The notes under the pieces were generated by a model. That model was not told the DNA's origin. It was given only the letters and a program-made list of their open reading frames with translations, and did not search any database. From Entophlyctis helioformis (lineage: Eukaryota; Chytridiomycota; Chytridiomycetes; Chytridiales; Chytriomycetaceae), in contig JAHLKH010000014.1 in assembly GCA_025526915.1 (NCBI GenBank), forward strand, positions 1-64,000: a stretch of 64,000 bases of DNA. Direction: 5' to 3'. Positions 5,477 through 64,000 of this stretch are shown piece by piece. Positions within the stretch are counted from its first letter, which is position 1, and the number at the start of each line of letters is the position of its first letter. Position numbers and translations under genes: made by a program.

Positions 5477-7511
5477 TCATGAGATGTTGAATCTGCTCAT
5501 GAACTCGAGACACTCTTCCAACTCGGCCAAGGTGAATCCAGTAACCAGCTCAACGTCGGCCGGGTAGAATGGCACCTCTGTTAAGCGTGTGCACATCACG
5601 GTCAGCTACTGCAACAGCCAAAGAAGAGCCTGCATGAACACGAGCAGGCACGATCTGTGAGGTTGGGACATACCAGACACAGATTCATGGGTCATCACCG
5701 TGCGGTAGAATGCAGACGAGGCCAGTTGGCTGTTTGAAAACTTGAGCGACTCGACCTCGCAGACCGCGTGATGGAGGAGCGATGCCGCCTGTGAAAAGAA
5801 CCCCGTGTTGTCGTACTGGTATCCGTCCATGTCAAAGTGGGCAAACTCGACTCGACTCTTGCAGGCGGTCAGCATCCTGTGCCGCTCGAAGCATCCCAGA
5901 AGATAGTCAATTGCAGAAGGGATAAGCATATTCCAATCAAACATCTGACCAGATGCGCCATGCAATGTCAGTCATTGACGATACAAGGCAACTCTCAAGT
6001 GATCAGACGGTAGCAGAGCAAAGAAGGGGATGGCTTACATTCAAAAGCTCGTGTTGGAAACATTTGTACAGATACTTGATCTTGCTCAGCATCTGTGCTC
6101 TGTCGGCGTCCGTCGTGAGGTCTTCGAGGGCAAACTTGACAAAATGAGACAGCTTGGTCGAAAAGTCGGTTTCCTGTGCACAGCAGCTACATGTCAGCAC
6201 CAGATTGGACGGATATGAAGAAGTAGATGGCCTAGTATGATGGACACCAAGTTCTCACCTCGATCTTTGCAGCCGTAAACAGACAGAATATCGCCAGCAG
6301 CTGAAAGTCCTCCAGCCTCACTTGGCCGGAATAGTACGTCATGTACGCATCCAGGAAGTTGACACCCATATGGAACGTCTTGCACTGAAACCCGTGATTG
6401 TACGACACGCCACGCATCCACTTGGTGACTTCCTTGCGGGAGTCTCCATCGATCTCGCCGTTGAACGCCTCATGGTCTCGACACCCTGACATTATGAGAT
6501 GCTCGCGCCTGATTTCCAGCTCCCATTTGTGAATGTAGTCGCCCACAATGGAAGCTGGGTCGCCCTGTAGTAGTTGGATAAAGACACATATCGACAGCAT
6601 GGTGGTCAGAACAGGATACATGGATAGAAAACAACGCGTGCATGGACAGCATGCTCGTCAAGCATGCATACCTGCGACCACGCCATGAGCTTGTCCGCCA
6701 TCTTGGCCGTGCATGCCAATGCAGGCGAGCCGGTCTCCTCCTTGGCCGCCTCATGCTTGGCCGCGATACTAGTGATAGCATCGGGGGCAGCAGGGGCAGC
6801 CAAGGTAGCAGGCGAAGCGGCAGCAGTGGGGGCAGCGGCGGTAGTGGCGGTAAAGGCGGCGGCAGGGGCGGTAGGCGCGAGAGAGGTGGCAGTAGTGGCA
6901 GCGGCGTGAGCAGCGGTGGCGGGAGCGGGGGTGGTGGGGGCAGCCGGCGCATCTGTCCGCGTGCGCTTGGGGGTGACTCGAATATCTTCCTCCTCGCGCA
7001 CCTTACGCTTGGCCTCGATCATCGTGGGAGTTTCGTGGGCAGCGAGGGTGGCAGTAGCGGCGTCGGGTTCGGCAAGAGTGGCTGATTCGGCACGGATGGC
7101 TGATTCGGCAGGTGCGGCTGAGTCTACAGGTGCGACAGGTGCGATAGACGCGACAGGCGCTGCAGGCGCGACAGGCGCTGCAGGCGCGACAGGCGCTGCA
7201 GGCGCTGCGGGCGCTGAAGGAACGTTGCGCCGTGCGCGTTTTGTCCTTGCACCTGAGTCAATGTCGTCGTCCTTGTCCGCCGTACGCTTGGCCGCAGTCC
7301 TCCTTGGAGGGTCGCGGGCAGCGGGAGCAGCAGCGGTGGTGGTGGCGGCAGCGACAGCGGCAGTGGTGGCAGCGGGGGCAGCGGGGGCAGCGGGGGCGGC
7401 AGCTGCAGCGGGGGTGGGCTTGCGCTGGGCGATGGTGCTTGCCCGGAGCATGCGGGTAGGGGCGGCAGCTGCTGCTGCAAGCCGGCGGGTCTGGCTGCGG
7501 GTTGCAACCAT
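5477..7511 (-). CDS. Cyclin with long Ala/Pro-rich N-terminal extension
   Basis: Five exons on the minus strand (7511-6672, 6564-6259, 6173-6039, 5944-5674, 5577-5477) splice in phase with GT-AG ends into about 550 residues. Exon 1 encodes about 280 residues of Ala/Pro/Thr-rich sequence with basic KR patches that may be nuclear signals. Exon 2 encodes the cyclin box, with MRGVSYNHGFQCKTFHMGVN, then NFLDAYM and FCLFTAAKIE, the helices that contact the CDK. Exons 3-5 supply the C-terminal fold (FDWNMLIPSAIDYL). Cyclins activate cyclin-dependent kinases; the subfamily (A/B-like or other) cannot be fixed by eye. The ATG at 7511 (MVATRSQT) is chosen because the open frame further 5' has only a GTG. 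An 18-bp unit encoding APVAPA repeats three times in exon 1. Confidence 0.88.
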
Positions 7512-10004
7512 GCCGCCAGCGATGTTGGAATGGCGGCGAGGAGAGGCAAGAGCCCCGCCTTGATAAAAGGAGCGGGGTGGCTCGTGTGTCGGTGCGTGCG
7601 ACACACGCGGATGGCGCCACTGGATGGCTCCGCTCGGTTTATGTTATCAAGCCTGCTCCGGCGCGTGCTGGGCGTGCTGGGCGTGCTGTTGATGCGCATC
7701 TGGATCTGCAGTCTGTTTTGCCACTCGCCGCAAGTGCCATCCAGATGAGAAGACAAAAGGGCCACCGAGACGGGCCACCGAGGCGGGCAGCCCAGATGAG
7801 AAGACGAGGGGTGGCGGCTGTGCGTGGCTTGTGTTGTGCTTGTGTTGGTGCTCGTGTTGGTGCTCGTGTTGGTGCTGGCTGGTGCCGTGCTACCGTCGTG
7901 CCGTGCTACCGTCGTGCCGTGCTTCCGTCGTGCTTCCGTCTTGCTTCGTGATCTAGCTTGGATCTCAGGTGCAGGCAACGACGTGCAGCAGCGCGACGTG
8001 CAGCAGCCAGCGATGGCGTGCCCAGGCCAAGGGAAGCAGGGCAGCAGCCAGCGGGGGCTCGAGGCCACTGCCCTGCTCGCCTTGAGCTCGCCCGGGTGCG
8101 GCGGGCCGCGGTCTTGCTCGGTGTCCAGGCGAGCGAGTCGAGCCGGCTTGGCTCGTGTGGCCCAGTGCCGGTTTCGCAGACAACGGGGCGGCTGCTGGCG
8201 GATCGGCCCGTGAGACGCACAGAGGGCCGCTGGTCCGTCCGTCGCATGCTCGCATGCTTGCGTGTGTGCGCGGGTTGTGAGCGGGCTGTGCGTGCACGGG
8301 CCGTCCCCATGCACCTGCACAGCAGGCTGGCCAGCGAGCGTCGCCATTGCCGTCGTTGTTGTTGTTGTCGTTGTTGTTGTTGTCGTCGCGTCCATGCTCT
8401 TGTCCTGCGTGCGATGCTGACTGTCTCGAGCATGTGCTACTTGCCAGCGGCTCTGGATGGCCGCCTGGCTCGTGTGGGCGGCTGTTCACACAATGGCTGT
8501 TCACACACTGGCTGTGTGCCACGGCCTGCCACTGACGTCGATCCGCACGCTAACCACGCTCGGCCCACACTGACGCAGGTGCAGCAGGTGCAGCAGGTGC
8601 TGACGGTGCAGACCGAAGCGAGCCGCTGAACCCCAAGGCGCGACGTGACGCGACGCGGCTCGCTCGTGCTCTTGCTTGCCGCTGGTGCTTGCTGCTCAAG
8701 AGATCCAATAGCCAGGCCGCGTTTGCAGTCGTGATTGCCCCATGGAGCGCACCTGTCTGCCATCGCGGAGCGGGGGGCCGGCAGGCGGGTCTGGGTTGAG
8801 ATCGGCTGCCATTGCGGATTGCATGGGGCCGCACTCGGTGCTGCCAAAGGGGACTTGCACGGCTGCGAGCCAGCGGACCGACTGACCGACTGGCCGACTG
8901 ACTGACCGTCCGACCAGCCTGCCCACAATCGACAGGCCAGAGCCGCGCGTTTCGCCGTGGATGTGACCCCCAAGAGTGAGTTTGGTATGGCCGCAGGTGT
9001 CTGGGATGCGACAGGCTGACAGGCTGACATGTTGACAGGTTGACAGGCCGAAAGAGGGTTGCAGAGGCAAGTCGCTGCATGCTCTGGAGGCAGGTGCTGT
9101 CAAGGGACGGTCAAGGCGAAAGTGTTGTTTGCGATCCCGATCAGGCAAGCAGACGGACGGCCGAGCGGCTGGATGGCTGGATGGCTGGATGGCTGAGCAT
9201 GGTCGCTGCCCCTCAACTTCCAGAGCGGCCGGGTGCACAAGGAGCGAGTGCCGCAGTACAGACTTGCTTGCGTGGGCAGACGTTTTGGCAGCAGCGGCGG
9301 CAGCGGAGGCTGTTTGTTTGTGTTGGCGTGGCTGCAACCAAAGGACGCTGGCGGTATGCATGCACGCACTTGCCTGTGTGTATGCTGCACAGACTGCCGC
9401 TGGGTCACTCGCTCTCTCGCTCTCTCGCTCTCTCGCTCCATCGCTCTGCCGGCACAGCTGCGGTGCACAGGCGCTGTGCACAGGTCCTGGTTGCATCTGA
9501 GCCTTGCGCCGCATTGCTGCTGCGGCTGGTTTCTGTCGTGCAAGCCAAGATCGCATCGAATGCCGGTGGATGTTTGTGGATGTCAAGTGGATGTCGGTGG
9601 ATCGCATCTGGCTGGCCGCTTGCTGTTCTCCTGCATGCCCTCTGCCGACGATGGCCGGAGAGTGGGATGGTTGGTGCGGCAGATGAATGAACAAACGAAC
9701 GGTCGAATGCCAAGCAGCAGCAGGTACATTGCCCATCGCTGGCACGGAGCAAGCTGCCCAATACCTCCAGAGATACAACGCATTGAGACGGAAGCCATGC
9801 ACCGTGCAGACATGATCAGGCTCTTACATGCAGCATGACAACGTGTCGCGGGTCGTTGCCTGTGTTGTTGGTCGGCCGTGTGGAGAACTCCATGATGCCG
9901 CACTTGTTGACACCAACACGCCATCTGCCACTGGCCTGTCCAGACCGCGTTGGCTTGCACCGCGTCTGCCAATGCTGCATGCGGCCTTGTGCGGATCGTC
10001 TCAG
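6768..10004. repeat. Right copy of the ~3.28 kb direct repeat
   Basis: This segment repeats 1-3283. It covers most of cyclin exon 1 and the whole 2.5 kb flank between the cyclin and the plus-strand gene at 10034. Bases 7512-10033 hold no supportable gene. They contain short tandem runs, including CGTTGTTGTTGT near 8354, GACCGACTGGCC near 8878, TGACAGGC near 9010, GGATGGCT near 9170 and CTCTCGCT near 9410. The long open frames here are made of this simple sequence and are not conserved in frame between the two copies, which argues that the region is non-coding. Confidence 0.95.
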
Positions 10005-43361: not shown

Positions 43362-43475
43362 CCGGTTTATGAACCGGAAAAAACCATTTGTTCCGGGAGG
43401 GTTGCAGCGGCCGAGGGTTTGTCCGTTTATGGCCGGCCAATCAAGGACCGACTCTCAAGCCAAGACCCAGCCAAT
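43362..43475. promoter_or_regulatory. Rhodanese/PEX5 divergent promoter: inverted repeat and two CCAAT boxes
   Basis: CCGGTT-TATG-AACCGG (43362-43377) is a perfect 6-bp inverted repeat with a 4-base spacer, the kind of CGG half-site pair bound by Zn2Cys6 factors. CCAAT boxes lie at 43437-43441 and 43471-43475, both followed by CA(A/G), 57-95 bp before the PEX5 start. Confidence 0.5.
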
Positions 43476-43531
43476 CAGCGGGAGACTCTCAACTGGCGAT
43501 CGAGAGACTCGGACGTTCCCCAACCCCTCAC

Positions 43532-45826
43532 ATGAACGGTGGCAATGGCAACGGCGGCCTCCTTGGTGCACTGGTAGGCTCCAAGGGCGACTGCGACACA
43601 GGCAACTCGCTTGCTCGGCTGGTCAATCACTCTGCCCAAAAGAGTGGCAGCAGCTGGGCAGACCGGCTCGAATCTGGGTCCCCTGGCCCGTCGGCTGCAT
43701 CGTCGTCGTCGTTGTCAGCGTTCCGCCAGCGCAGCCTTCGCAATGGTGGTGGTGCGCACATAATGGTGAGCGGACGGGCTGTGACGACAGCAGGCCATCG
43801 GCAGGTGCTGACAAATGTGCTCGTGTGCCTTGCTGCCTGGATCCGCTTGCACCCCTATGCTGGCTATCGTGAGCAGGCGGGCTCCATGGGCCGTGCCGAG
43901 TTCCGAGTCGAAGAGTTTCTCGAGCAGCACCAGCAGGGCGGCAGCAGTGGCCACCACCCGTTCGAGTTTGGCGAGCTGCGGCACGAGCTCGATCGGTCGC
44001 TGGCTGGCCCACCTCCAGCAGCGGCAGCAGCGGCAGCAGCTCGAGCCCGTCCAGCAGTGTCATGGGCCGATGAGTTTTCCCACCCGCACGCACTTCACCA
44101 CATCCAGCCGCAGCAACAGCAGCAGCAGCAGCAGCAGCATGACTTTGCCGAGTTTGAGCACGTGTTCGCCAACGCTGGGCTCCATCGTGCTGCAGCAAAC
44201 GGTGGCGGCGACTGGGAGCGAGAGTTTGTTTCGGCGGCATCGGCTTCGGGCATCGAGATTGACGGCGTTCTCGACACCAAGAGCATGCTCGCTGGCCAAA
44301 ACCTGACTCCTGTCGAGCGCGAGGCCTTTGAGCTCGAGTGGACGAAGCAGTTTGATGCTGTGCAGAATGCGATTCAAGGCAAGGAGCCGTTCGAAGGCGA
44401 TCTTCTTGCCACAGCCGGCGGATCGTCCGAGTGGGAGCAGCAGTTCCAGGAGCACGTCAGCAAGGGCCCCCAGAGTGAGAACGACGGCGAGTGGTTCGAA
44501 AAGTTCAACGAGATCTGGTCGAGTCTCAAGGGCCAGCATGCCTCTGGAGGCGACATGGACGAGTTTGGGTTTGGGTTTGACACGCAAGACTTTGGCGGCA
44601 ACATGGACCTAGACTTTGAGGATGCCTTCCAGCGCAGCCTTGCAGGCGACAACAGGGACCTGTTTGGCCATGGCGGCGACGAGTTTGGGTCGTTGAGCGA
44701 GATGGTTGACCCAGACCCAGTAACGGCGCCAGCGGCTCCGTACACGTTTGAGACGGAGAATCCGTACTTGGACCATCCTGATCCGCTTGCCGAAGGATTG
44801 AGTCTGATTCGTCAACAAGGCTCTCTCTCGCAGGCAGCGCTTGCCTTTGAGGCAGCCGTGCAGCGCGACGGGACGAACTCGGATGCTTGGATGTTCCTTG
44901 GACGAGTGCAGGCCGAGAACGAAAAGGACGGGCCAGCAATTGCGGCGCTGCAGCGCAGTGTGCAGGAGAATCCTGCAAACACGAGCGCGTTGATGGTGGG
45001 TCGTCTCCCTCTGCTGGTGCGTAATGCGTTGCGATTCTTGGTTGTTGACTCCCATGCTGCACAGAGCCTTGCCGTCAGCTATGTCAACGAGCGTCAGGAG
45101 CTGCAGGCCTATGCTACGCTTGATCGCTGGCTGTCAACGTGCCGTCCCGATGTGGCCCAATCCAGTGCATCGCCGTCGTCCAAAATGGGCATGTATCCAA
45201 ACTCTGCCGACATGCAGGCCCGTCTGACGACTCTGTTCCTCTCGGCTGCACACGATGGCGAATCCGGCCCAGCCGATGCGGACCTGCAAGTGGGACTTGG
45301 ACTGTTGTACTACAGCGTCGAAGACTTTGCAAAGTCTGTCGACTGCTTCACGGCCGCACTGTCTGTGCGGCCCAACGACTACATTCTCTGGAACCATCTG
45401 GGTGCGACACTGACCAACTCTGGACGCAGTGAGTATTGGCATGAAGACGCGTGGCATGTGCAGGTGTTGTGCAATGTCTTGCTGACCGAGACTGGCTTTA
45501 TTGGGGAATGTGTGCAATCCATTGATACAGCTGAAGAGGCCATTGATGCGTACTACAAGGCGCTGGAGCTCAAGCCGACGTTTGTGCGTGCGCGGTACAA
45601 CCTCGGTGTCGGATGCAACAACATTGGCTGCTACCGCGAGGCTGTCGAGCACCTGCTTGGCGCGCTCAGTCTGCATGGATCCAACCACCAGCAGCAGGCA
45701 AACGTGTCGCGGAGCCTGTGGGAGACCCTTCGCCGCACGTTCAGTTCGATGGGCCGTCGCGATCTGGCTGAAAAGGCCAGGTCGACACAGGATCTGGACG
45801 TTTTCCGTGCCGAGTTTGACTTTTGA
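43532..45826 (+). CDS. PEX5: Peroxisomal targeting signal 1 receptor PEX5
   Basis: The N-terminus LLGALVGSKGDCDTGNSLAR has the conserved cysteine that is monoubiquitinated for receptor recycling. Five WxxxF motifs that bind Pex13/Pex14 follow: WADEF, WEREF, WTKQF, WEQQF and WFEKF. C-terminal TPRs start at NPYLDHPDPLAEGLSLI and include DAWMFLGRVQAENEKDGPAI, LGLLYYSVEDFAKSVDCF, WNHLGATLTNSGR and ARYNLGVGCNNIGCYREAVE, forming the PTS1 (SKL) pocket. Introns 43766-43876, 44996-45064 and 45429-45530 keep the frame. The receptor imports matrix proteins from the cytosol. The ATG at 43532 is chosen from homology; upstream frame lacks another ATG. Confidence 0.96.
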   Translation: MNGGNGNGGLLGALVGSKGDCDTGNSLARLVNHSAQKSGSSWADRLESGSPGPSAASSSSLSAFRQRSLRNGGGAHIMVSGRAVTTAGHRQVLTNVLVCLAAWIRLHPYAGYREQAGSMGRAEFRVEEFLEQHQQGGSSGHHPFEFGELRHELDRSLAGPPPAAAAAAAARARPAVSWADEFSHPHALHHIQPQQQQQQQQQHDFAEFEHVFANAGLHRAAANGGGDWEREFVSAASASGIEIDGVLDTKSMLAGQNLTPVEREAFELEWTKQFDAVQNAIQGKEPFEGDLLATAGGSSEWEQQFQEHVSKGPQSENDGEWFEKFNEIWSSLKGQHASGGDMDEFGFGFDTQDFGGNMDLDFEDAFQRSLAGDNRDLFGHGGDEFGSLSEMVDPDPVTAPAAPYTFETENPYLDHPDPLAEGLSLIRQQGSLSQAALAFEAAVQRDGTNSDAWMFLGRVQAENEKDGPAIAALQRSVQENPANTSALMVGRLPLLVRNALRFLVVDSHAAQSLAVSYVNERQELQAYATLDRWLSTCRPDVAQSSASPSSKMGMYPNSADMQARLTTLFLSAAHDGESGPADADLQVGLGLLYYSVEDFAKSVDCFTAALSVRPNDYILWNHLGATLTNSGRSEYWHEDAWHVQVLCNVLLTETGFIGECVQSIDTAEEAIDAYYKALELKPTFVRARYNLGVGCNNIGCYREAVEHLLGALSLHGSNHQQQANVSRSLWETLRRTFSSMGRRDLAEKARSTQDLDVFRAEFDF

Positions 45827-57378: not shown

Positions 57379-59990
57379 TAGGATACTTTGTAAGGAGAGT
57401 TGACAGTGCTACAAATATCCTCGTGCAGCCATTCAAGAACGCATTTGAAGTCTTTGTCAACCGGAATGATGTTGGGGCCTCTGCTGGTGCAATCACAGCG
57501 CCGATCGTCGCGAGGTATGTTTATTCTTGAAGGATGTCACGGACATGATGGCATTGACGCGTTGAATGCCTTGCACAGATCTGAGCCTCAAGCCGACCAC
57601 ATCAACCACATGGATGTCAACACGACTCCATCTGTTGGAATGAAGTATGAATGCATGGAATCTGTGGCGTTTCTGGCAAAACTGACACTGAGTTTCTGTT
57701 TCTGATGCTGCGATCTTGTTATTGTGCAGGTGCTTGATGGATGGATGCTGCTTGAGCCATACTGCACAGCAGCGGCAGCAGGCTGAGAACGGCGTCCAGC
57801 TTGTCCACCTGACACGTGGCAGGGTCGAGCAGCTTGTCAGCAGCACTGTTGGCAGCAGGCGGTTGGATGCTGCCTTCAGTGAGGTGAAGGGTTGCCATGT
57901 GGCACTCGACACCATCATCAGGTGCACAGTCAACCGCCTTGCGAGCAGCTACGATGCTGTCACGCGTCGCAACATCCTGGCAGCCATCTGCAAAGCAGCA
58001 AGTGCCCAGCTGCTGCAGATTGCCAGCGAGCAGTTTCTTGGCGCAGATGGCATTTTTAAGCTCCTCCCAGCAGATGAGCCAATCTATCGCGCATTGGTAT
58101 GTTTGCATGGCTTGAATGCATGCTGTTGCTCTTGCACCACGTGCATTTGTTCATTTTGAATGCGGCTGACTTGATCCATTGCTTCTGGACAGAACGCAGC
58201 AATGAGAATGCAGACGCAGCTGGACAAGATTGCCAATCCGCCATGCGCATCCCACCGGCATACATCCACTCCCAGTAGGTGTTGATTGCATTGAAATGAT
58301 TGCACAATGCACTCACAGATCCATTTGTGTTGAATGCATAGTACTGGACACAGAGACGCAGAAAGTCGAGTACCATGGCAGGATGACCACGCGAGTTGCA
58401 CCGCGATCCATTGTCGCTGCTATCCACGACAAGGCGTCAGCCTGGCTGTATTTCCTGGAGCACCCCATAGGTCCACATCCAGAAAACGCCAAACCGCCAA
58501 CACTCATCAATCAGCGCCAAAAGGCCGTCGCTCTGCTGCAGTCCATCATTGAGCAAAGTGCAGTGCGTCTCGACTTCCACTGACTGCATGTGCATGGAAT
58601 GATTTGGCGCGATTGCTCACCATCCCACTCCACAGGTTGGTCCTCCTCCACCGCCGCCCAAGCCACCACGGTTGTCCAACAACATTTTCGCAGCACTGGC
58701 ATGCTCCAAGACCTTTCCCATTGGCGATCTTGCCGACACTGAGACGACGGTGAGTTTGGTGCACCATTGGCGATTGTGGCTGTGTTTGGTGCACTTGGAA
58801 TGGCCGCCTGATGCTGCATCCAACCGTCACAGGCGCCATTCCAATTCACGGCAGCCAAGCGGGCTGCGCACACAAAGGAGCGTGCCAAGAAAAAAGAGAA
58901 GGCCACACTACAGGAGATCATCAGAGAGAACAAGAAGAAGTCAGGCCTGCGTGCTCGCAAGGCTGGAACTGTTGGCAAGAAGAAGGCGTACGCGACATAT
59001 GGCATGCCATGTGCCTTGAATGTGCTTGCTGACACGTGTGTCATGCCACAGATGGGTTGCTGGCAGTCGAGTGGCAACTCGTCAGAAGCTTGCAAAGCTC
59101 GGCCGCATGATTGCGATGCCAGTCATGACACTTGCCGCAGCCACCATCCCAAAGGACAGCCAAGACCTAAAGGCAATGCACACAGCCGCCCTGAGCAGAT
59201 TGTCAAAATGGCGGTATGGGGTTTGATCGGCATGCTGCTCTGTTTGCTTGGCTTTGTGGATGCTGACTTGTGTGGTATGCAGGAGATGCAGTCATGCGAT
59301 CTCGCAAACACCAAGTTTTTTGGGCCCCAAACCAAGACACCACTCGCTGAGCAGACACCCAGTTCAATCAGCCACGACGCCACCCTCACAGTCTACTATT
59401 TCACGGCCGGCTTGTGGCGTGCTGCCCTTGCCTTGATCGGCGCCATGGTCGCGGATCTGATCAAGCTGAATGCAGACGCGCCTCTGCCTCTGGAGTACTG
59501 TGTCCTGGAGGCAAGCCAAGGCAAGCTGACGCAGTATTACTATGTCAACCCGGAGGACTTTGATGAGGACGAGAGCGCGACGCTCTTGTCAGGTGGATGC
59601 ATTCACAAGCAGGGCATCATTGTTTGGCACATGTACGGCACCGGCCCGCACAGCAGCGACACAAAGATCCCTCGCTATGGCAGCTTGGTGACTCTCGACA
59701 GTGACACGGCTCTCAAGATCTGCGCCTTTGATACTGCCAAGATTGCCAAGCAACCCAACATGCATGGCGACCTCGACGATCAGGACGAGCAGAACGATCA
59801 GGACGAGCAGGACGAGCAGGACGAGCACGATGAGCAGGATGAACCCATGTGCAGCCTGACGACCCATGCATCCAGGACGAGCATGATGTGCACAATCAGC
59901 CGACAGCAGGCCAGCAGCACCGGCGCTTCATCTTCAGCCGTCCAACCGCCACCACCACCACCCAGCAGCAGCAGTTCCATCAGCAAATGA
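57379..59990 (+). CDS. Unrecognised multi-exon gene upstream of the Fanzor
   Basis: Coding exons with in-phase splice sites include one ending at about 57514 (PFKNAFEVFVNRNDVGASAG), about 57581-57648, 57730-58096, 58193-58274, 58319-58562, 58636-58749, 58833-58987, 59052-59213 and 59283-59990. The start codon was not found. Notable parts are a possible Cys pair (SICVECIVLDTETQKVEYHG), a PPPPPPKPP stretch, and a very basic coiled segment (AAHTKERAKKKEKATLQEII then RENKKKSGLRARKA). A hydrophobic helix (LWRAALALIGAMVADLIKL) and an acidic tail repeat (DEQDEQDEHDEQDE) follow. One missing base is needed near 58235 and another near 59283. No known domain is visible. It is 52 bp from the Fanzor start and the two might be one transcript or gene. 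Confidence 0.55.
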
Positions 59991-60042
59991 GCTGCTTACA
60001 GCCCTCACCAGCAGTATATCAGGTGGAGGCGGTGCTGTGGAA

Positions 60043-61815
60043 ATGCTGCTGCGCCATCTTGGCTATGTCCTGGCGGACAGCATGATGGTGCAGCCGCAAG
60101 CAACAAAGCATGCCATCCACTCCTGGATCGTAACAGTCATGCAAATGACGATCCATCGCACCTGGACGCGGAGGGTGCTGCAAACCAACGCAGCCAAGCT
60201 GCAGGATGACACGGTACAGATGGACATGATGCAGACGTGCACAATGCTGATGGACATGCCACTGATTGATGCAATGCAGCAGGCGGCCACGGCACACAGC
60301 GACACGTTCCAGAAAGACGCGCGGCAAGCAGCCATGATGGACATGGCACAGATGGACGCGATGCAAGCAGCCACGATGGATGTCGACATGATGGACGCGA
60401 CGCAGCAGACGGTGACAATCCAGGCCGATGCGATCCTGTCAGCCGTGGTGCAGGCAGATGCAGAGCTGTCGGCCTTGATGCACACAAGTGCGCAGACGGC
60501 AGACGCTGTGCACGCGGGCACTATGGAGGCTGTCTTGCCCTACAGGCTTGATGGCAGCCTTTGCGCAGATGCAAAGAACGACATTTACGGCAATCTGGCC
60601 AGGGATGTGTGTGGCATGCTCGCGCGGCACTACATCTCTAGCCAGTCTGAGCTGGCCGTCACTGCAGCCCTCAAGATGATGCCCAGTGCATCCATTGAGG
60701 ACGTGAGAGTGTGGATTGCGGCACTTTTCAAGACCGCCAAGGCTGCCAAGGCCGCCAAGGCTGCTGCTGCCAAGGCTGCCAAGGACGCTACACCACCAGC
60801 GATCGAGGACGCCACACCGCTGGCCACTTTGGATACTGCTCCTCCCACCTCAAGTCTCAAGCGGGGCCGGTCCACCTCTTCGTCAGCCAACAAGGGCGGC
60901 AGGCCCAAGAAGCGACGGGGCAGGAAGGCCACCACCACCAAGGACGCGGCATCCAGCTCTTCCTCGGCCACTGAGGACAGCGGTCTTGATACAATCCCGC
61001 AAGAGCTGCACGAGCTCAAGACGCTGGTGCCTGATGTGTCTCGGTCAGAGATCGTGATCTTTTACGAGCTGTCCAAGCTTGCTGGCACGACAAACAAGCT
61101 GTGCCCGCAAGCAGCCAGCCGCGATCCCTTCATCCTCGTCACCGAGACAACGCTCTTTTGGGCGGTGATGGGGAGTAGGGGTGATCGCATCCGTGGCGAG
61201 CAAAGTGCTGCTTTGGCATACTTGCGGCTGCAGCTCCTTGCTGCACTCAGTAGGTCGCACTTGTTTATGCCATGTCTACATGATATGATGCTAACACTCC
61301 ACTTTTATCCAAGACTACCAAAAAGCCAGATTGGGTCTCGCATCATCCAACAGGACGATCAAGAAGGCGTTCAGCAATAGCAAGGAGCTCTGTATCCTCA
61401 ACATACTTCTTCCCGGCCTCCGCCCCAAGAAAGGCCGCTATCAGACGCCAGACGAGGCCGACAAGGAGGTGTTTGAGCAGGTCCAAGCAAATGACGCAGT
61501 CATTGCTGATGCGATGCAACTGGCTGATCACGAGGGTCTGGTTGGCAAGGAGCGCCAGGAGTTTATAGACGCCGTGATTGATGGTCTTCCTCCTGCAATT
61601 CCAAGCAAACCGACCGCGGTGGGCAGCTTCCGGACGGACGGATACAGCATCTTTCAATTGGCGCTGGACTATTGCACAGACCGTCCAGAGTCGCCTCGCA
61701 GTATGTGGCGTGCTTGAATGCTTTGGTGCACACATTGGTTCTGACTGCCGCCTTGATCTGCATGCTCCAACATGGCATCTTTAGGCGAGCAGCCCAGCCT
61801 TGCTGATGGCATGCC

Positions 61816-61848
<33 letters not shown>

Positions 61849-63447
61849 CGATGAGGCTGATGATGGGCATGACGGGCATGATCACTTGGATGGCGAATGT
61901 GAGTTGCTGTGCCAATCCAGACGCGTTCTTGTTGTCCACACCGACTGACATGCCATCCACAGCCGCCAATCCAGCCAACCCATCAGCCACCAAGCCAAAA
62001 GCGACCAATCCTGTAAGCCACTTGCATGCTAAACTTGCGCATTGGTGCACATGCATTGCACATTCCTCACTCATGCATGGCATGACAGGGCAAGCTCAGC
62101 TTCTACGCCTCGCAGCGATTGCTCAACATCATCAACGCCAACAATCTGTTCACTGACCAAGGCTACCAGCTGTTCGCGTTGTCAGCTTGATTGGGGCAGC
62201 GGTACCTGTATGGCGCGTCCAGTATCTGGTTGATCTCAGAGACTTTCGTATAAGCTCGAGTCCAACTATGTGCTCTCCTCTGGCATGTTCAAGCTGAGCG
62301 TGACTTTCAGCAGTGGTATGCATGCAATGACTCTGCCATGCGCACTCTTGACCAGATCAACTCACAGTGCTTGTCTCTTGTGTCAGGTTTGCTGATCGAC
62401 TTGCCAAGGCTGCTGACATCCACAAGCCATCGCATTCAAGACAGCAAAGCATGCCGATCCAGGCGTCAAGCCTGGCGAGAGAGCCTTTTGGGATCTGCGC
62501 TGCCATGCGTACTGCACGCCATTCCTGAATGCACGGGTACGCTTTCTCTGTATCTGGATGCCCATTGACATGACCGCCATGCTGCTTGATCGCCATGCTG
62601 ATTGCACTGGATGGCATGGCATGGCGTGGCATTCCACAGAAGGTCAAGGCCAAGCGGTTTGCCATGCGCTGCAGCGCATGTCTGATCGCGGACAGCTCTT
62701 GAGGGCATCATGAAGCTGGCAGGATCGACCACTGGAGAGCGTGCATCCGATGCGTCTCAAGGCCGCTGTGACAAGCCAACAGAGAAGGACATTCCCGTTG
62801 TCTGGGCATTTGGCATCGACTTTACAGGTCAAGGTGGCGGCACGCTGTGTTTGAGAAGTTCTCATCAGGCATCTGCGGTCGTCTGGATATGCCTATGTGC
62901 GTCTGATATGCCATCCATCCATCCATCCATCCATCCATCCATCCATCTGTGCACCAACTGACACACGATCATGCCACACACCACACACACACACCACACA
63001 CACACACACACACAGATCTACCGCTGCAACGAGAACCTGACCAGCCAGATGTGCCCGCAGTGCAAGCAGCGGATCCCATACGAGAACCGCACCAACCTGC
63101 GACGCTACGAGTGCATACCATGCAAGACCGTCTACCACCGAGACGTGCTTGGAGCCACCAACATCGGGATGGTTGCACTGTGGCATCTGCTCTTTGGACA
63201 CCGGCCGCTCTACTTGACGCACACGCCACCTGACAGCAATCCAGCCACGCCAGAGTACCTTGCAGACATTGAGGCAACTCATCATGACATCCAGTGGCGT
63301 GCACAACATCACATCATGCTGCTCGCGACACCGCCTGATCAGCCTGTCGTCCAGCAGCCTCCGTCACCCGATCTGCTTCCCTTCAAGTTGCACGTGGCCT
63401 CATGGGATCAGATCATGCTGCCATGTCTGCCAACAACAACACTTTGA
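60043..63447 (+). CDS. Fanzor (TnpB-like RNA-guided nuclease), Fanzor1 type
   Basis: Exons about 60043-61249, 61314-61700, 61785-61898, 61963-62012, 62089 onward, about 62250-62700 and 63016-63447. The N-terminal part is helical, then basic with AT-hook-like GGRPKKRRGRK, then poly-Asp (61817-61855). The nuclease end has a candidate RuvC-I DPGVK (62456-62470), a RuvC-II region IPVVWAFGIDFTG (62794-62830), and the final exon NENLTSQMCPQC...YECIPC...VYHRDVLGATNIG. The zinc cysteines lie at 63052, 63061, 63112 and 63121 and the RuvC-III aspartate at 63142. This C-terminal pattern is diagnostic of TnpB/Fanzor. Frame changes near 62430, 62690 and 62842 are probable one-base errors; otherwise the copy is decaying. 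The start is uncertain because the frame is open upstream to 59887. Confidence 0.85.
61817..61855. repeat. (GAT)n tract encoding poly-Asp inside the Fanzor
   Basis: Twelve or so GAT/GAC codons follow MP in exon 3 and encode an acidic run. It is in frame, so length changes would be tolerated. Confidence 0.9.
62911..62946. repeat. (CCAT)n microsatellite in last Fanzor intron
   Basis: Eight to nine CCAT units in the intron before the zinc-finger exon. Confidence 0.95.
62973..63015. repeat. (CA)n tract ending in the last Fanzor splice acceptor
   Basis: A CA-rich run (CACACA with ACC interruptions) ends in CACAG, the acceptor of the zinc-finger exon at 63016. It replaces the usual pyrimidine tract. 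Confidence 0.9.
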
Positions 63448-63501
63448 ATCGGGGGACCTCCCGATCGACCTAACGGGTCACTTCAATAGAAGGTGAGACC
63501 C
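63448..63501 (+). ncRNA. Candidate omega-RNA 3' scaffold: two hairpins after the Fanzor stop codon
   Basis: Hairpin 1 starts on the base after TGA: ATCGGG (63448-63453), 6-base loop, CCCGAT (63460-63465), a perfect 6-bp stem. Hairpin 2 is 63475-63501: GGGTCACTTC, AATA tetraloop, then GAAG-G-TGA-GA-CCC, ten pairs with a 1-base and a 2-base bulge. Known Fanzors use an omega-RNA from the 3' end of the gene and its adjacent flank, so position and structure fit. No transcript evidence exists here and the guide boundary is not known. Confidence 0.5.
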
Positions 63502-64000
63502 TTGTTGGATGTGCCATCGCCCGCCTGTCGTCGCATGCTCGTTGCTGACTCGAACCTCCCATCGTGTGATATCTGGGTTGCATCCGTCGCCTCTTGCCAC
63601 GAATTTAATTCCAAAATCCTTGGTGTTTGTTTGAATATCGTCCCGTCAATCAAGCCCATCATGAACGGCATGGTGTGTGCTCCTGTGCCTCTGTGCTCGT
63701 GTGCCATCTGTCGAGTGCTCCTGTGCTTCAGCAGACAGAGAAGCGGCCGGTGGCAGGCTGTTGGTTCTTGATGCAATGGTCCAAGTGGGTCCTTTCAGGG
63801 GCAGTGACTCTGCAGCCGTCCTACAACATCGTCGCGGTTCATGCCGCACAGGACCGTTGTGGGACCCTGGCTCGCTCAGATCACGGTCGGCTGGACCGTT
63901 GCGGTCCTGCTCGAGCTGCTCGAGTAGTTGAGCGGCTTGAGCAGCAGCAGTTGTGCGCCACCTGCCAGCCGGTCTGCACCATGTTCACCATCCGCCGACC
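63502..64000. other. Right flank, no supportable gene
   Basis: Short open frames on both strands (for example minus-strand GTIFKQTPRILELNSW near 63660-63610) could belong to a gene running off the window, but no domain, splice pattern or start supports one. If the Fanzor sits in a mobile unit, its right end should lie here or just beyond. Confidence 0.4.

Follow-up and report, generated by a model that had tools for sequence, protein, structure and literature searches.

At the right-hand side of the window (the whole 64,000-nucleotide stretch analysed here) lies a left-truncated copy of a high-copy DNA transposon of the chytrid Entophlyctis helioformis. The copy contains the 3' part of a candidate XPG/FEN-like gene, a Fanzor-like gene of eight modelled exons, and a 3' non-coding end (Table 1). 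Its left terminal inverted repeat (TIR) is missing; the sister copies extend to the left beyond 57419.

Table 1. Features of the transposon copy in the window
Feature	Position	Strand	Basis
Left-truncated transposon copy, subfamily A	57419..63640	+	alignment to sister copies begins and stops here; others extend leftward
Candidate XPG/FEN-like gene, 3' part (approximate)	57419..58100	+	JGI model P0122 of a sister copy spans the stretch; motif assignment weak
Fanzor-like gene, exon 1 (frame broken in window)	59020..61249	+	start from open sister copies; modelled part 60907-61249
Exon 2	61314..61700	+	comparison of copies
Exon 3, with Asp tract	61785..61898	+	comparison of copies
Exon 4	61963..62012	+	comparison of copies
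Exon 5, with RuvC-I (DWG in sister copies, about 62181-62205; window frame broken)	62089..62315	+	
Exon 6, with DPGVK, non-catalytic	62387..62536	+	
Exon 7, with VVWAFGIDFTG	62640..62896	+	
Exon 8: displaced Glu 63031-63033, zinc finger, RuvC-III Asp 63142-63144, stop	63016..63447	+	codon positions from sequence
3' non-coding right end, candidate guide-RNA scaffold	63448..63640	+	
Right TIR, lacking the GGCC that most copies have	63622..63640	+	

The left end of the element is GGCCCGGTTCTCATACCATTACC and the right end, in reverse complement, is GGCCCGATATTCATACAATTACC. These 23-bp, imperfect repeats begin with GGCCCG and agree in 19 of 23 bases, which makes the element a TIR DNA transposon. 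Allowing one mismatch, the right-end pattern is found at 122 genomic places and the left-end pattern at 85, and the reversed control patterns of both ends give zero matches. Paired ends are 7.2-9.1 kb apart in many copies and farther apart in others; the element measures ~7-9 kb in well-paired copies. The target site duplication (TSD) is 8 bp: in 12 of 21 end pairs the 8 bases flanking the element on either side match at 7 or 8 positions, at most 11 independent cases because C18 and C272 have common flanks. Two further pairs (C5b, C219) have shifted duplications, and seven lack an agreeing one, where chimeric or wrong pairing is possible. C122, C408, C36 and C60 (L020, L021, L024, L040) have a right flank in common, so some of the "copies" may be alleles or segmental duplicates. 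At the C36 copy, ~35 bp of the right flank are repeated in the left flank (L029 around 5072; L024 after 6696); this duplication, longer than the usual 8 bp, adjoins a left end without a TIR. The TNB zinc-finger profile PF07282 scores above its cut-off at all 150 genomic places scored (205 candidates). A second match on the window's contig lies beyond the window, at G000:C14:143829-143981.

The initial annotation took the gene to be domesticated or long resident. Long residence holds, as that of a transposon family. Many introns would suit a domesticated single host gene, but copy number, TIRs and TSDs make that reading practically untenable. No transposase domain was found by Pfam in six frames of the C36 element. 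The transposase may act in trans, or one of the element's own proteins may be a transposase that goes unrecognised. The left-end count includes at least one 28-bp remnant, the C4 match, which has no Fanzor match nearby; it was considered as an autonomous partner and rejected for being only a remnant. It stands alone (L099 48-75, G000:C4) and is perhaps the trace of an excision or abortive insertion.

The seven introns are GT-AG in all nine copies checked intron by intron, in line with the intron richness first reported, and the window copy keeps the splice sites of its sister copies. In C237 the introns are 64-103 bp long and the modelled part gives a clean 655-residue product. Among the 28 sequences tried, 16 map over the eight exons and 10 over exons 5-8 only; C35 is unmapped and C24, a left-part piece, has no match. 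Half of the 16 are stop-free over exons 1-8 (C58, C395, C237, C63, C76, C239, C129 and C108) and the other half contain stops, eight of them in the window copy. Exon lengths differ by multiples of three across the stop-free copies, and so does the length of the in-frame Asp tract, confirming its earlier description; C108, though stop-free, shifts frame in part of exon 1. The basic stretch, also described correctly, belongs to exon 1 of subfamily A and is missing in the subfamily-B copies C129 and C108. The gene start had been placed at 60043, but open copies can start near the equivalent of 59020; from a Met there, a candidate start, C239 is open for 1,285 residues. Seven insertions of ~240-340 bp are carried by sister copies (L012, L013, L022, L023, L017). 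They were considered as new introns and rejected: six resemble small TIR elements, with related ends (TGTAAC...) and internal repeats, two showing 5-bp duplications by eye, and the one in L017 differs.

The C-terminal signature recognised initially, CPQC-x16-CIPC followed by HRDVLGATNIG, is present in the last exon, which matches PF07282 with E=2.1e-9 (37.8 bits, cut-off 26.3). The spliced core matches the same profile in 7 of 7 copies (best E=1.1e-11), bearing out the proposed TnpB/Fanzor kinship, and the NCBIfam model guided_TnpB matches all seven core sequences (best E=5e-8) at the zinc-finger end only, with scores that fall far short of its cut-off. D35, E221, D258 and all four zinc-finger Cys show no variation among seven aligned proteins. 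VVWAFGIDFTG was likewise recovered as first read. The DPGVK at 62456 had been proposed as RuvC-I and is rejected for lack of conservation: the G occurs in just two printed sister copies (C395, C262), and N replaces the D in C76 and C67. The conserved motif is DWG, at about 62187, encoded by GA[T/C]TGGGG in all 25 non-window rows (24 distinct places). The sequence evidence supports membership of the protein in the TnpB/Fanzor superfamily. The superfamily motif D-X(125,275)-[TS]-[TS]-X-X-C4-X(5,50)-RD, as given in the excerpted text of PMC3627910, is found in the spliced C239 product, and in C237 the stretch from D35 to T224 measures 188 residues.

The Fanzor fingerprint, as stated in the available portion of PMC10711439, comprises DPG, a displaced Glu in E-x6-CxxC-x(12,18)-CxxC-x(4,8)-D, and a spacer of 120-160 residues. 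The E-x6-CxxC-x16-CxxC-x6-D of the present protein fits the displaced-Glu pattern, but RuvC-I is DWG and the RuvC-I-to-Glu spacer is 183 residues; the protein is therefore called Fanzor-like. Section 23 of the same source, in the portion available, describes TnpB-family proteins that pair DPhiG with a displaced Glu, the same RuvC-I/RuvC-II pairing as here. As points of difference, the host of the present protein is a fungus, its gene is intron-rich, and it resides in a TIR/TSD transposon. The catalytic signature, together with the unusually conserved introns, departs from the described Fanzor pattern. A homologue search with residues 300-560 returned nothing at E<=1e-3; it is weak because exact words are required and length is limited, and it missed even models from the E. 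helioformis genome itself. No viral relative and no significant PDB match were found.

As assembled, the window copy is broken in frame, including the RuvC-I region. It does not read through: over 58695-63640, 14 one-base deletions are private to this copy, 11 falling in exons 5-7, compared with 0-8 in ten other subfamily-A copies. In a 25-copy core alignment the number is eight, the count varying with the alignment used, with zero private insertions and an ordinary seven private substitutions (0-12 in the others); 19 of the 25 copies have no private one-base deletion. Most of the deletions lie in the stretch with the highest similarity between subfamilies A and B; within A, that stretch is the more diverse. 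Three of the eight fall in homopolymers (background 0.37), and a homopolymer origin is rejected. Because the copy is rich in deletions, free of private insertions and ordinary in substitutions, its frame breaks are more probably consensus or assembly errors than decay, a long-read assembly being assumed. Genuine decay of this one copy into a pseudogene, with no artefact, keeps a substantial minority chance: the left truncation, the altered right end and the lack of a homopolymer excess would suit it, and the one-sided deletions, scarce in other copies, speak against it.

The left part of the element encodes a second protein. Stretches of it resemble XPG/FEN nucleases by eye, judged against motifs which we take to be those of that family. 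The exon model of this gene agrees with JGI model P0121 up to the last intron; P0121, P0122 and P0123 belong to the contigs of C36, C239 and C254. Pfam XPG_I_2 gives E=0.018 and 0.013, under its cut-off, no PDB relative was found, and the predicted structure of P0122 has a pLDDT of 37.9 and is unusable. Six proteins were found for this gene, all from E. helioformis. The candidate XPG/FEN-like assignment is offered as a lead only.

Along the stretch after the stop codon, C237 shows 92%, 86% and 88% identity to three copies from other subfamilies; in exons 1-2 its identity to these copies is 66-72%. For C239, which belongs to the subfamily of C237, the figure after the stop is just 91%. Within subfamily A this stretch is the most diverse of four compared (pi 0.071). 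The similarity across subfamilies may come from sharing between them or from the needs of transposition. Two hairpins 3' of the stop hardly vary. A guide-RNA fold of the right end is unsupported by two-sided changes (0 of 37 pairs), by folding (z=-0.70) or by any Rfam match. No motif common to the flanks of the duplicated sites was seen by eye; TAMs are found by cleavage assay.

Between subfamilies, the introns are more alike than the exons. When C237 is compared with C129, C108 and C336, 7, 5 and 6 of the seven introns, or 18 of 21 in all, are closer in sequence than the exon on either side; in the comparison with C239, of its own subfamily, this holds for 1 of 7. Over exons 1-4, fourfold-site divergence (K4) is 0.57-0.75 and intron K 0.12-0.18 in six between-subfamily pairs, the C108 values being blurred by its frame-shifted stretch, and four within-subfamily pairs give K4/intron K of 0.01/0.01, 0.06/0.04, 0.06/0.04 and 0.08/0.07. 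Over exons 5-8, with the out-of-frame C336 values excluded, A-B pairs have K4 of 0.17-0.18 and intron K of 0.04-0.09, the latter not above within-subfamily values (0.05-0.10). Exon divergence falls near introns 3-7. In the XPG-like gene, C36 and C198 share 77%, 98% and 97% in the introns and 77%, 70%, 78% and 95% in the exons. Introns and exons diverge alike within subfamilies, which argues against slow mutation or ordinary constraint of the introns, although the pairs are few and non-independent. The pattern may reflect intron-anchored exchange or exon-restricted replacement, which the present pairs do not distinguish. In snake venom phospholipase A2 genes, a multi-copy family with a similar pattern but unrelated proteins, coding parts also evolve faster than introns.

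The nuclease core is a fine-grained mosaic, with the caveat that the assembly may mix near-identical copies. All 25 haplotypes are distinct over 154 shared polymorphic coding sites, and mean r2 drops from 0.49 (1-10 bp) through 0.21 and 0.088 to 0.077 (301-1100 bp), compared with 0.041-0.042 after shuffling. Mean pN is 0.074, pS 0.138 and intron divergence 0.063 (105 pairs, from 15 of the 25 aligned copies). Among ten subfamily-A copies, the core has a pi of 0.057, compared with 0.026 and 0.027 for the upstream stretches.

Taken jointly, the locus is a truncated copy of a TIR DNA transposon amplified in E. helioformis, and the Fanzor-like protein of the family is probably an RNA-guided double-strand DNA nuclease serving the transposon. 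For the Fanzor-like protein we infer RNA-guided cutting: the 3' region would supply the scaffold RNA and the sequence past the right end the guide, so that alleles without the insertion would be cut and then repaired by copying the element back. The PF07282 matches in window and sister copies, the partial guided_TnpB matches, the invariant D-E-D and Cys residues, the open copies, and the TIRs and TSDs favour this reading; DWG in place of DPG, the 183-residue spacer, the lack of a homologue, viral relative or significant PDB match, the unsupported RNA structure at the right end, the high diversity of the post-stop stretch within subfamily A, the lack of a shared flank motif and the C108 frame shift count against it. 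The initial suggestion of an active nuclease is not supported for the window copy, which is cut short on the left, has no left TIR and, as assembled, has a broken frame. In the sister copies the D, E and D residues, the zinc finger and open frames are all retained.

Alternatively, the RuvC-like protein might act, singly or together with the XPG/FEN-like one, as the element's own transposase and not as an RNA-guided accessory nuclease. Both proteins sit inside the element, and the Pfam search of the C36 element revealed no transposase; but the TNB/zinc-finger signature is of the TnpB/Fanzor type, and in the studied elements covered by the excerpted literature TnpB/Fanzor is an accessory, so this is unlikely. 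Slightly less likely still would be a TnpB-family protein that binds RNA and DNA as a regulator and has lost cutting. The atypical RuvC-I motif could point that way, but D, E and D are invariant in the seven aligned copies and DWG fits the DPhiG motif of TnpBs (PMC10711439, portion available).

The nearest described systems, as far as the excerpted sources go, share some features each. Fanzor1 of Spizellomyces punctatus (SPu-1, SpuFz1) also has a chytrid host, a TIR transposon and a C-terminal D...[TS][TS]xx-C4-RD, but SPu-1 measures ~2.1 kb, its single ORF (633 aa) is uninterrupted, its TIRs are 33 bp long and its TSD is TA, whereas the E. helioformis element is ~7-9 kb long, has 8-bp TSDs and a second gene, and carries its Fanzor-like gene with seven introns and DWG. 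In Ectocarpus and its virus, the Fanzor1 elements likewise have 8-bp TSDs but are assigned to the IS4 type; the present element has no recognised transposase, and its TIRs are unrelated as far as seen. CMe-1A of Cyanidioschyzon merolae is comparable in its very high copy number and differs in being ~3 kb long, without TIRs and with TSDs given as undetermined. High copy number is thus already known (~150 CMe-1A copies, hundreds in some hosts). In titles and the beginnings of abstracts, no Fanzor literature naming E. helioformis was found; PMC10432273, in the part available, joins Fanzor with a chytrid.

Searches for Fanzors, which are RNA-guided nucleases of eukaryotes, have used the fingerprint of DPG with the displaced Glu, and the same fingerprint has served as an argument for a single bacterial source. 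A high-copy eukaryotic DWG family would escape it, and may point to a second capture or to a looser signature. Introns more alike than exons between subfamilies, with equal rates inside them, make the diversifying of a transposon nuclease by recombination testable in a small fungal genome. A bolder reading, to which we give a modest chance, places the protein in a TnpB-family lineage of eukaryotes that is separate from the DPG Fanzors and marked by DWG plus displaced Glu; within one chytrid it would have been amplified as a transposon with a recombining pool of copies. As introns and not exons are most recently common to the subfamilies, exons of diverged element lineages would have been shuffled, perhaps through conversion that the element's nucleases initiate, or through conversion confined to exons with RNA/cDNA as the template.

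Elsewhere in the window, the ORF at 43373-45826 is Pex5-like; its best hit, an E. helioformis protein, is 84% identical along the compared stretch, and the difference presumably comes from introns translated within the ORF. Near-identical Ala/Pro-rich ORFs on the minus strand at 2-1237 and 6606-8485 suggest a large tandem duplication at the window start.
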